Below are positions 15,566-26,695 of a stretch of 64,000 bases of DNA, piece after piece. Position 1 is the first letter of the stretch. Every line of letters begins with the position of its first letter. The DNA comes from Flavobacteriaceae bacterium (GTDB taxonomy: Bacteria > Bacteroidota > Bacteroidia > Flavobacteriales > Flavobacteriaceae): contig JAQWGQ010000002.1 in NCBI GenBank assembly GCA_029238125.1, positions 1 to 64,000 on the forward strand, read 5' to 3'. The notes below the pieces were generated by a model, which searched no databases, had not been told where the DNA came from, and saw nothing but the letters and a program-made list of their open reading frames with translations. Both the position numbers and the translations under genes were made by a program.

Positions 15566-17443
15566 TTATTTAATCAGCTCAAAGCTTCGATTGACAAAGG
15601 AAGTGAGTTCTTCACCTTTTAACAGATTTTGGCTTAGTCTTGCGAGATCGACAGATTGCTTAATCAGTCGGTCTTGCTTCTTCTTGGTTTTTGTTTCTAA
15701 AATCTGACTCACTAAGGGGTGATTTACATTGACAATTAGATTGTACATTTCAGGCATATTTCCTCCAAACATACCGCTGCCACCTGTTTGCTGCATCTCT
15801 TTCATTCGGCGCATAAACTCTGGTTGGGTGATCATAAATGGCATCGCTTGACTATCCATTGGTTCCAGTTGGACAGTATAGGTCGTTTGTGGCACCACGT
15901 CTTCAACGAGGGATTTGAGCTTGTTTTGGTTTTCCTCACTCAACTTAGATGGGGTTGTGTCTTCTTTTACAATGAGTTTGTCGACTTGGTCGGCATCAAC
16001 TCTTGCAAAGCTGATATTCTCTTCGCTTGTCTCTAGTTTTTGTAAAAGGTGGCCGACAATCGGAGAGTCGAGTAGTAAAACCGTATACCCCTTGGATTTG
16101 GCAGCTTCAATATAGGCATGTTGTTCATCGTCATTGGACGCATAGAGTTGAACGAGCTTCCCATCCTTGTCAGTTTGTAAATCTTTGGTTTTTTCCTTGA
16201 GCTCTTCAAAAGTCAAATATTCCCCTGATGTGGTTGGGTAGAGTGCAAAATCTTTCGCCTTTTCGAAAAACTTGTCTTCTGAGAGCATTCCATATTCGAT
16301 CACAACCTTGATATCATTCCATTTGTCTTGGAAAGATTCACGGTCTTTTTTAAAGAGAGACTTGAGTTTATCTGCGACTTTTCGAGTGATGTAATTGCTA
16401 ATTTTTTTGACATTACCATCTGCTTGTAAATAGCTTCTCGAAACGTTGAGTGGGATATCGGGCGAATCGATAACACCGCGAAGCATGGTTAGAAACTCAG
16501 GAACAATTCCTTCGACGTTGTCGGTAACAAACACTTGGTTTTGATAAAGCTGAATCCGATCCTTTTGCACATTGAGATCCTGCGTAATTTTTGGAAAATA
16601 TAGAATCCCTGTGAGATGAAATGGATAATCAACATTGAGATGAATCTGAAATAAGGGCTCTTCAAACTGCATCGGATAGAGTTCTCGATAAAAACTGTTG
16701 TAGTCTTCATCTTTGAGATCTGTCGGTTTATTAATCCATGCGGGAGATGGGTTGTTGATGATGTCATCAACGACTTCCTTGATTTCCTTGGCATCTTCTC
16801 CTTCGCCCTCTGTTTTGGTGATTTCTTTGGTGCCCAATTTGATTGGAATGGGCATAAATTTGTTGTATTTCGTGAGCAAGGAGCGAATTTTCGATTCTTC
16901 TAAAAATTCTTTTGAGTCCTTATCGATGTGTAAAATGATCTCTGTTCCTCGATCAGTTTTAGCGTGTTTTTCCAAAGTAAACTCTGGCGATCCATCACAA
17001 GTCCAATGTGCCGCTGGCTCATCCTTATAGGACTTGGTAATGATTTCAACTTTTTTGGCGACCATAAAGGCAGAGTAGAACCCGAGACCAAAATGACCGA
17101 TAATCCCACTATCTTTCGCACTGTCTTTATATTGTTCCAAAAATTCTTCGGCACCCGAAAAGGCAACTTCGTTGATATACTTATTGACTTCATCGGCAGT
17201 CATCCCGACTCCCTGATCTATAATATGAACTTTTTTTGCCTTTTTGTCAACTTTAACTTCAATTTGCGGATTGCCATAAGCAACTTTTGCCTCCCCGATT
17301 TGTGTGAGATGTTTGAGTTTTAGCGTTGCGTCTGTCGCATTGGAAATCAATTCCCGTAAAAAGATTTCATGGTCACTATATAGAAATTTCTTGATTAGCG
17401 GGAAGATGTTTTCAACAGCAACATTGATTTTTCCAGTACTCAT
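15566..17443 (-). CDS. htpG: molecular chaperone HtpG (Hsp90)
   Basis: ATP-dependent cytosolic chaperone, 625 residues, the usual bacterial length. GHKL ATP-site motifs are present: ELISNATDA (31-39, with the ATP-binding Asn and catalytic Glu), DQGVGM (76-81) and GHFGLGFYSAF (near 115-125). Middle and C-terminal dimerisation domains follow. It is a single gene with its own terminator downstream. No clear TAnnTTTG element was found in the upstream gap, so a heat-shock type promoter of another form is possible. Confidence 0.97.
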   Translation of the reverse strand: MSTGKINVAVENIFPLIKKFLYSDHEIFLRELISNATDATLKLKHLTQIGEAKVAYGNPQIEVKVDKKAKKVHIIDQGVGMTADEVNKYINEVAFSGAEEFLEQYKDSAKDSGIIGHFGLGFYSAFMVAKKVEIITKSYKDEPAAHWTCDGSPEFTLEKHAKTDRGTEIILHIDKDSKEFLEESKIRSLLTKYNKFMPIPIKLGTKEITKTEGEGEDAKEIKEVVDDIINNPSPAWINKPTDLKDEDYNSFYRELYPMQFEEPLFQIHLNVDYPFHLTGILYFPKITQDLNVQKDRIQLYQNQVFVTDNVEGIVPEFLTMLRGVIDSPDIPLNVSRSYLQADGNVKKISNYITRKVADKLKSLFKKDRESFQDKWNDIKVVIEYGMLSEDKFFEKAKDFALYPTTSGEYLTFEELKEKTKDLQTDKDGKLVQLYASNDDEQHAYIEAAKSKGYTVLLLDSPIVGHLLQKLETSEENISFARVDADQVDKLIVKEDTTPSKLSEENQNKLKSLVEDVVPQTTYTVQLEPMDSQAMPFMITQPEFMRRMKEMQQTGGSGMFGGNMPEMYNLIVNVNHPLVSQILETKTKKKQDRLIKQSVDLARLSQNLLKGEELTSFVNRSFELIK

Positions 17444-17532
17444 ATAAGTTTGATTTTAATAACCCATTACAAAAAAAATACCATATTTTTCTCTCTGACA
17501 AGATGACACTTTTATAAATTTTGTTTAAAATA

Positions 17533-17564
17533 TTTGGAAAAAGATTAAACACAATATATATTTG
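17533..17564 (+). promoter_or_regulatory. Bacteroidetes promoter ahead of the fabH leader
   Basis: TTTG (17533-17536), 20 bases, then TATATTTG (17557-17564) match both halves of the Bacteroidetes sigma consensus (TTTG/TAnnTTTG). Transcription would start near 17570, about 160 bases ahead of the fabH-like gene, giving a leader with two hairpins. Confidence 0.75.
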
Positions 17565-17570
17565 TACGAG

Positions 17571-17705
17571 AAAAGGGTGTTATTCAACTCTCAAAAAGGG
17601 AATAATTGCTATGAAAAATGAATGACACCTTTTCAATGTATTCTTGGTTTGTTTGTTTTTTTGGTTAAAATGTTTAAGGTGTGCACTTGCACACCTTTTA
17701 CTTTT
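17571..17705 (+). ncRNA. candidate small RNA or regulatory leader upstream of fabH
   Basis: From the predicted start, AAAAGGGTGTTATTC (17571-17585) can pair with GAATGACACCTTTT (17620-17633) with one bulge and one G-T wobble. A second hairpin, AAGGTGTGCA/TGCACACCTT (17676-17697), is followed by TTACTTTT and looks like an intrinsic terminator 34 bases before the fabH ATG. The strings AAGGTGT and ACACCTTTT occur in both hairpins, so the 5' arm could pair with either partner. Either a free RNA of roughly 130 bases or a switching leader would fit. No known RNA family was recognised and no ORF of note lies inside (only a 4-codon MKNE). Confidence 0.45.
17676..17705 (+). terminator. terminator-like palindrome before fabH
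   Basis: Perfect 10-base arms AAGGTGTGCA and TGCACACCTT around CT (effective loop ACTT) are followed by TTACTTTT. It resembles a rho-independent terminator, but a protein-binding palindrome is also possible. Confidence 0.55.
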
Positions 17706-17730
17706 CTATTCAATTCCTTACTTTTAGCAA

Positions 17731-18750
17731 ATGAATAAACAATACACTTCAAAAATTATCGGACTGGGTAAATACGTTCCAGAGAATCGGGTTACCAATG
17801 ATGATTTATCAAAGGTCATGGATACAAGTCATGATTGGATTGTAGAACGAACAGGAATCGAAGAGCGCCGATTTATTCCAAAGGATTCTGCTGAAGGTAC
17901 TGCTTCCATGGGGGTTCAAGCTGCCGAACAAGCTATTGAACGTGCGGGAATTCAAAGAGATGATATCGACTTAATTGTCTTTGCGACTCTGAGTCCAGAC
18001 TACTATTTCCCTGGTTCAGGAGTGTTGGTGCAAGATTTGATGGGAATTGGCACCTGCCCTGCACTTGACGTTCGAAATCAGTGTTCGGGTTTTATCTATG
18101 CATTGTCTGTTGCAGATCAATATATCCGAACTGGGATGTATAAAAATATACTTGTTATCGGATCGGAACACCACTCGGGAGGTCTCGATCTCAGCACGCG
18201 AGGGCGTACAGTCTCTGTTATTTTTGGAGATGGAGCTGGTGCAGCAGTCTTGAGTAGACATGACAATCTGGACGAGGGCGTCCAATCCACTCACCTTCAT
18301 TCGGAAGGGAAACACGCCAAAGAACTTTCTTTAATTGGTCCAAACACCAAAAAATGGGTACATGAAGTGTTTGAAAACTATGACCCGGATGATATGGATT
18401 ATCATCCCTACATGAACGGGCAATTGGTTTTTAAGAATGCAGTAGTTCGATTTTCAGAAGTGATTCTTGAAGCGCTTGCCAAAAACAATTTAGAACCCAG
18501 TGATATCGATATGTTGATTCCGCATCAAGCGAATTTGCGTATTGCTCAGTTTGTCCAAAAAAAGTTTGGTCTTCGAGATGATCAGGTTTACAACAACATC
18601 ATGCGCTATGGAAACACCACAGCTGCATCCATTCCGATTGCACTCTGTGAGGCGTGGGAAGAGGGTCGAATCAAAACTGGCGATCATGTGATGCTCGCTG
18701 CTTTTGGAAGTGGATTTACTTGGGGAAGTTCTCTGATCAAATGGGTCTAG
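17731..18750 (+). CDS. fabH: 3-oxoacyl-ACP synthase III (FabH-like)
   Basis: Condensing enzyme of the KAS III family, which joins an acyl-CoA to malonyl-ACP. It has 339 residues, with the catalytic triad Cys118 (NQCSG), His265 (HQANLRI) and Asn295 (GNTTAASIP). The gene is alone, not next to plsX, rpmF or other fab genes, so it may be the primary FabH or one of the paralogs common in Flavobacteria that use special starter units. Upstream is the longest gap of the window with a promoter and two hairpins. Its end overlaps the convergent symporter gene by 14 bases. Confidence 0.85.
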   Translation: MNKQYTSKIIGLGKYVPENRVTNDDLSKVMDTSHDWIVERTGIEERRFIPKDSAEGTASMGVQAAEQAIERAGIQRDDIDLIVFATLSPDYYFPGSGVLVQDLMGIGTCPALDVRNQCSGFIYALSVADQYIRTGMYKNILVIGSEHHSGGLDLSTRGRTVSVIFGDGAGAAVLSRHDNLDEGVQSTHLHSEGKHAKELSLIGPNTKKWVHEVFENYDPDDMDYHPYMNGQLVFKNAVVRFSEVILEALAKNNLEPSDIDMLIPHQANLRIAQFVQKKFGLRDDQVYNNIMRYGNTTAASIPIALCEAWEEGRIKTGDHVMLAAFGSGFTWGSSLIKWV

Positions 18751-25967: not shown

Positions 25968-25980
25968 TGGATAAAAAACA

Positions 25981-26012
25981 TTTGCCAGTACGTTAAAAAT
26001 ATTGTTTATTTG
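25981..26012 (+). promoter_or_regulatory. rpmB promoter
   Basis: TTTG (25981-25984), 20 bases, then TTTATTTG (26005-26012), one mismatch to TAnnTTTG. The predicted start near 26018 gives a leader of about 24 bases before the rpmB ATG. Confidence 0.65.
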
Positions 26013-26041
26013 CACTCCGATTACAAAAATCAATTTTTGCA

Positions 26042-26275
26042 ATGCCAAAAGTTTGTCAAATTACCGGTAAAAAAGCGTTGGTTGGAAACAATGTTTCCCA
26101 CGCTATGAACAAAACAAAGAGACGTTTTGAAGTGAACTTGATTAAAAAACGCTTCTACTTGACAGATCAAGAGAAGTGGATCACTCTCAAACTTTCAACG
26201 TCTGCTTTAAAAACCATCAATAAAAAAGGACTCGCGGCCGTGCTCAAAGAAGCAAAAGCCCAAGGCGTCCTCTAA
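26042..26275 (+). CDS. rpmB: 50S ribosomal protein L28
   Basis: Large-subunit protein of 77 residues. The start [21 protein letters not shown] matches the L28 signature, followed by basic residues and the C-terminal beta/helix segment. It lacks a zinc CxxC pair. It is first in the rpmB-rpmG-DUF4295 operon behind a good promoter, 10 bases before rpmG. Confidence 0.97.
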
Positions 26276-26285
26276 ATACATTGTC

Positions 26286-26468
26286 ATGGCTAGAAAAGGA
26301 AACAGAGTTCAAGTGATTTTAGAATGTACAGAACACAAAGCTTCGGGCCTTGCGGGTACTTCTCGTTATGTCACAACCAAAAATAAAAAGAATACGCCTG
26401 ATCGTATTGAATTGAAAAAATTCAATCCGATTTTGAAAAAAATGACTGTTCACAAAGAAATTAAGTAA
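26286..26468 (+). CDS. rpmG: 50S ribosomal protein L33
   Basis: Large-subunit protein of 60 residues with the L33 core [12 protein letters not shown]...[21 protein letters not shown]. Only one Cys (Cys14) is present, so this is the zinc-free form. It is separated from the downstream mini-gene by two bases. Confidence 0.97.
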
Positions 26469-26470
26469 TC

Positions 26471-26623
26471 ATGGCAAAGAAAACCGTTGCAACTTTACAG
26501 ACATCATCAAAGCGTTTGACCAAAGCCATTAAAATGGTTAAAAGAGATAAATCTGGAGCGTACACTTTTGTAGAATCCACGATGCTTCCTGAGCAAGTGA
26601 ATGAATGGCTTGCCAAAAAATAA
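26471..26623 (+). CDS. DUF4295 mini-protein, probable ribosomal protein bL38
   Basis: A 50-residue basic protein, MAKKTVATLQ...EWLAKK, read directly from the sequence between rpmG (2-base gap) and a terminator. The family DUF4295 is confined to Bacteroidetes and regularly follows rpmB-rpmG. From memory, the Flavobacterium johnsoniae ribosome structure showed a new protein named bL38; the composition and operon position fit this gene, but the assignment is inference. Confidence 0.85.
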   Translation: MAKKTVATLQTSSKRLTKAIKMVKRDKSGAYTFVESTMLPEQVNEWLAKK

Positions 26624-26643
26624 AAACCATAATAAACAATAAC

Positions 26644-26670
26644 AAAAGCCACGATTCGTGGCTTTTTTTA
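26644..26670 (+). terminator. terminator of the rpmB-rpmG-DUF4295 operon
   Basis: AAAAGCCACG and CGTGGCTTTT (10-base perfect stem, ATT loop) are followed by further T. It lies 20 bases after the DUF4295 stop and 26 bases before ftsY. Confidence 0.9.
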
Positions 26671-26695
26671 TTTATTACATTTACAAAAAAGAAGA

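Follow-up and report, generated by a model that had tools for sequence, protein, structure and literature searches.

The window analysed here is a 64,000-nucleotide stretch of a Flavobacteriaceae draft genome (contig JAQWGQ010000002.1, positions 1 to 64,000). In it, htpG (HSP90; 15566-17443, minus strand) and a fabH-like gene for 3-oxoacyl-ACP synthase III (17731-18750, plus strand; Pfam ACP_syn_III/ACP_syn_III_C) are separated by a gap of 287 nt (17444-17730). An earlier note on this DNA called this the longest gap of the window, which holds, as the sole longer stretch free of long open reading frames (25968-26695) turns out to be occupied by small genes similar to those of ribosomal proteins L28 and L33. 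The contents of the gap were also as described there, with a 15-bp stem and an intrinsic terminator behind a genuine promoter. The promoter, recognised from its sequence, is of the Bacteroidota housekeeping type (17533-17564, plus strand) and has TTTG at 17533-17536, a 20-nt spacer and the -7 box TATATTTG at 17557-17564, just as the note had it; TATNTTTR is found at similar spacing in nearly all homologues. By the Flavobacterium psychrophilum convention, which places the -7 box at -12 to -5 (PMC9723704), the transcript would start near A17569. On the minus strand, the htpG promoter contains TGG-N10-GT (complement of 17467-17483), which fits a sigma-54 promoter; in F. psychrophilum, htpG depends on sigma-54 (PMC9723704). 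Upstream of this sigma-54-like promoter, TGACA-N3-TGACA (17496-17508) is strictly conserved and is possibly an activator site.

The predicted transcript of ~135 nt (17569-17706, plus strand) has the architecture of a family of homologues, namely a hairpin with loop GGAA-ATTGCTATGAAA, followed by a U/G-rich linker and a terminator. In stem 1, the 5' arm GAAAAGGGTGTTATTC (17570-17585) pairs and covaries with the 3' arm GAATGACACCTTTTC (17620-17634), the same two arms that were proposed earlier. The apical-loop sequence GGGAATAATTGCTATGAAA (17598-17616) is near invariant in the genus, and its part TTGCTATGAAA is kept in matches of covariance model R2 in other genera; an ATG within the loop begins a short in-frame micro-ORF (MKNE* in this species). 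Loop variants GGCTATGAAA and TTGCTATGAGA also occur (L219, L235). The single-stranded, U/G-rich linker TTCTTGGTTTGTTTGTTTTTTTGGTTAAAATGTTT (17641-17675) is near invariant in the genus as well and has the family form TTTGTTTATTTATTGGTTAGGTTGTTT. The palindrome at 17676-17697 with its T-rich tail TTACTTTT was borne out as an intrinsic terminator (AAGGTGTGCA-CT-TGCACACCTT with tail, 17676-17706) that shows compensatory changes family-wide; the statement that AAGGTGT occurs in both hairpins was inexact, since the first hairpin has AAGGGTGT. The 136-nt predicted transcript folds at -36.8 kcal/mol versus -22.6 ± 3.4 kcal/mol for shuffled sequences (z = -4.2, 0 of 200), stem 1 by itself reaches z = -5.0 against shuffles, and the locus is matched by covariance models R2 and R3 with E = 4.7e-26 and 3.5e-18. 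The RNA is bounded by its own promoter and intrinsic terminator, as is expected of an independent trans-encoded small RNA.

Eleven related genomes carry the element at the same position with 77-91% identity. In the genus alignment hardly any change is seen in the apical loop (GGGAATNATTGCTATGAAA), linker or terminator, and stem 1 has double changes at 7 of its 15 pairs (16 double-change cells versus 6.2 in shuffled alignments, 0 of 500). Conservation falls directly behind TTTTACTTTT, ~25 bases before fabH, which fits the expectation for an RNA ending there. In the family alignment compensatory changes were found in all pairs of both helices, including all nine pairs of the terminator (99.4% paired). 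Because this alignment was fitted to the structure, an independent partner-swap test was used: over 114 loci, a homologue's own stem 1 arms paired strongly in 74%, as against 25-26% with swapped partners. Both hairpins, on whose conservation in close relatives the earlier note had made its proposal depend, are therefore conserved.

The genus covariance model finds the RNA in many other genera, and a second covariance model finds it in 80 of 299 sampled genomes of the family (E ≤ 1e-4). In a sample of 247 genomes from the class, the top-scoring match outside the family reached 45 bits, and the outside-family matches inspected were ordinary mRNA 3' ends. As the R3 matches inspected outside the family proved to be such 3' ends, counts were limited to E ≤ 1e-4; three of 66 rows of model R3 were false (L133:1770, L191:608, L191:856). 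A DNA pattern search of GTDB with the loop and linker motifs gave at least 119 loci, and all names shown among the listed matches were Flavobacteriaceae genera (Maribacter, Muricauda, Aequorivita, Cellulophaga, Eudoraea, Croceivirga and others) or an unclassified Bacteroidota MAG. The constancy of loop and linker among the 119 listed loci is not informative, since these were chosen by the two motifs; the structural-model (R2) matches in other genera show both loop and linker. The RNA, common to many Flavobacteriaceae, is absent from Rfam 15: no family scored above its gathering threshold at the locus, in agreement with the earlier statement that no known RNA family was recognised, and the weak below-threshold matches to rox2 and BTnc060 were dismissed as chance. 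At one locus, a Flavo-1 RNA (RF01705; L063:271-346) lies ~1.2 kb from a homologue of this small RNA.

Overlooked in the earlier note was a perfect inverted repeat, TGTTTAA-N16-TTAAACA (17522-17551, plus strand), which encloses part of the promoter, overlaps the -33 region and is a predicted operator of a CarH/LitR-type MerR regulator. The repeat was found within two mismatches upstream of 116 of the 119 listed homologues (60 exact), over a background of 0.4-0.7% in controls, the value at random places being 0.4%. In the draft genome of the window there are four perfect copies and no single-mismatch ones; the four precede or adjoin this RNA, an SRPBCC-SDR-photolyase operon, msrA-folE, and a TrpF-like/DUF2834-like pair, in the last case lying between the pair and a divergent short ORF (G000:C11:7351). 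The names SRPBCC, photolyase, TrpF and DUF2834 come from reading the sequences, not from profile matches. In 40 relatives ~75 operator copies were counted versus 3 for the reversed pattern; a separate exact-pattern search in relatives was too strict to catch variants. These copies precede crtI adjoining the MerR gene, folE, tetR, an ECF sigma gene, photolyase neighbours and the RNA, as well as SRPBCC, fasciclin and TspO genes. The RNA shares its predicted operator with crt, photolyase and folE genes, as a member of a CarH/LitR-type regulon would, and the genes linked to this predicted operator are the set expected of a light response. Genes for fasciclin-domain-like lipoproteins were recurrently seen behind the light-type operator in several genera (L245, L247, L234, L259, L267).

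A fitting regulator is encoded in the draft genome of the window. Its MerR gene adjoins a phytoene synthase gene and a hydroxylase-like gene (G000:C31), and the protein has MerR_1 and B12-binding_2 domains; the MerR protein of a relative (G020) matches CarH in the PDB (5c8d, 3e-12). Both proteins contain Wx9EH and ExHxxG, the motifs said to define CarH homologues (review, PMC8156234), and in this agree with CarH/LitR-type regulators. The full motif ExHxxG-x41-SxV/T-x22-27-GG is matched in part, with S one residue early and GG absent, and because its second half is degenerate, B12 dependence is probable rather than certain. The half-sites contain TAAACA, in agreement with TnnACA, the core of the consensus nAnnTnnACAn for CarH half-sites. 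The MerR protein was present in 71 of 71 genomes with the RNA at E ≤ 1e-5, compared with 149 of 228 others, a co-occurrence whose p-value is only indicative as the genomes are related and not independent. The RNA is optional, as 149 of the 220 genomes encoding the MerR protein lack a confident match to it. The repeat could also be bound by a different regulator. Control by the TetR protein encoded next to many homologues was considered and set aside, there being no TetR match in the draft genome of the window, yet the repeat is kept; at 82% completeness of this draft genome the absence of TetR is not proven.

The genes around the RNA change. htpG is its divergent neighbour at 90 of the 119 listed loci. 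The next gene 3' of the RNA is tetR, followed by an ABC1/AarF-type kinase gene, at 61 of the 119 and fabH at 34; at 20 of the listed loci the RNA lies behind tetR-aarF instead. A same-strand gene follows at 95 of the 119, where there may be read-through into it, and an opposite-strand gene at 20 (18 of these encoding an S9 peptidase). tetR (TetR_C_23) itself belongs to the operator regulon, and in one genome (G024; L258, G024:C10) tetR and the small RNA flank aarF ~2 kb apart, each with its own perfect operator. There is no tie to one downstream gene, which again is the behaviour of an independent trans-encoded small RNA; fabH is the next gene 3' of it here and not a fixed partner. The changing neighbours mark the RNA as an independent unit, travelling within a single neighbourhood, rather than a fabH leader.

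Two readings would keep the RNA a leader. The earlier note's main idea was a ligand-switched riboswitch with mutually exclusive hairpins before fabH, built on the resemblance of the 5' arm to one side of the terminator. This overlap is peculiar to one species and forms no alternative pairing: the ensemble probability in the window is 0.0002 for 5' arm-terminator pairing, whereas stem 1 reaches 0.98 and the terminator 0.997, and over 114 homologues a fit between 5' arm and terminator region was seen in 19% of cases, the same 19% as with the partner from a random relative. A conserved mutually exclusive pairing, the mark of a riboswitch or switching leader, was looked for in these 114 homologues and none was found, nor was there an Rfam riboswitch match. 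With the competing pairing missing from the ensemble and no better than chance across relatives, we reject the switching leader as extremely improbable; the suggested fabH leader with a fatty-acid or CoA ligand is not supported, as no pairing competes and the downstream gene varies and is on the opposite strand at 20 of the 119 listed loci. An attenuated leader, with the repeat-controlled promoter serving tetR or fabH downstream and the terminator setting how much transcription continues into that gene, is in line with the same-strand gene at 95 of the listed loci, mostly a tetR that is elsewhere itself a member of the operator regulon, and with the distance from linker motif to fabH of only 58-61 nt in this genus. 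Nevertheless it is unlikely, given the opposite-strand genes, the separate repeats of RNA and tetR in G024, the placement of the same RNA before unrelated genes, and the lack of an antiterminator, the 5' arm fitting the terminator no better than swapped partners do. What the earlier note had offered as its second option, namely a free small RNA some 130 bases long, is the one that stood, on the grounds of own promoter, covarying stem, intrinsic terminator and changing neighbours. We conclude that the interval quite probably encodes a stand-alone small RNA of ~135 nt that is derepressed by light through a CarH-type regulator and probably acts in trans.

The stand-alone RNA would work as follows. 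The housekeeping-type promoter would drive its synthesis and the intrinsic terminator would end it. In the dark, a CarH/LitR-type MerR repressor, encoded beside carotenoid genes, would most likely sit on the repeat across the -33 region, as suggested by the position of the repeat and the known behaviour of CarH (PMC8156234). Light would release the repressor, and the RNA would then be made alongside the products of photolyase, folate-cofactor, methionine-sulfoxide-repair and carotenoid genes. It is predicted to act in trans via two conserved, exposed segments, the loop GGAA-ATTGCTATGAAA and the linker TTGGTTTGTTT..TTGGTTAAG, which would either pair with mRNAs or bind a protein; of these, mRNA pairing would be the default expectation for such small RNAs.

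The two segments also allow other functions. The U/G-rich linker might titrate an RNA-binding protein, e.g. of the RRM type, rather than pair with mRNAs. It is the most constant part of the RNA, and similar U/G stretches before the terminators of ordinary mRNAs in many Bacteroidota suggest a shared binder, although their being so widespread points to a plain 3'-end element that is no sponge; we regard the sponge as possible but doubtful. Such linker-like U/G-rich stretches (TTGGTTA, GTTTGTTTG) were seen 5-15 nt before the terminator hairpin at many Bacteroidota mRNA 3' ends (L302-L312, e.g. L305, L306, L309). The loop, A-rich with a conserved ATGAAA, might instead be a ribosome start site, making the RNA a short mRNA or dual-function RNA for a peptide of two to five codons (MK*, MKK*, MKNE*). 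An in-frame stop within six codons is present in 47 of 97 distinct sequences versus 17 in frame 3, a count over related sequences; the codons and the place of the stop differ among sequences, roughly half lack an early stop, and coding conservation is absent. The ATG is kept and the frame is not, so a leader peptide was rejected, and the wider reading of a translated RNA is quite improbable. A further, speculative extension of the light-derepressed small RNA, which we consider rather unlikely, is that its loop mimics a translation start (AUUGCUAUGAAAAAG): a B12 photoreceptor would then control a family-wide small RNA, and light would reprogram translation via a start-site-like decoy or dual-function RNA, not transcription alone.

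In the sunlit ocean, Flavobacteriaceae rank among the main degraders of polymers, and descriptions of their small RNAs are few. A conserved small RNA under a light/B12 operator would, if true, tie sunlight to post-transcriptional control in this family, and TGTTTAA-N16-TTAAACA provides a concrete, computable operator for reading the light regulon in genomes of the family. The RNA resembles Rfp18 and other Rfp small RNAs of F. psychrophilum (PMC9723704) in being structured, conserved and, by prediction, independently transcribed; compared by description only, Rfp18 pairs through its third stem-loop and tunes proteases, whereas the RNA here has two hairpins. Like Flavo-1 RNA (RF01705) it forms a structured flavobacterial small RNA family, although it does not match the RF01705 model. 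The regulatory arrangement resembles that of the CarH/LitR (MerR-B12) regulons of Myxococcus and Thermus, with a MerR and B12-binding protein containing Wx9EH and ExHxxG beside carotenoid genes, an operator overlapping the promoter, and photolyase, folE and crt genes behind the operator. Unlike the 11-bp direct repeats of Thermus CarH, the half-sites of the operator here are inverted and widely spaced, and unlike the CarH/LitR regulons in the literature searched, the predicted regulon includes a small RNA; no relevant paper came up in a literature search for small RNAs that are controlled by CarH/LitR or found in marine flavobacteria. PcrZ of Rhodobacter and PsrR1 of cyanobacteria are light- or photo-oxidative-stress small RNAs of other phyla, and the RNA here would join them as a light-response small RNA under a different regulator.
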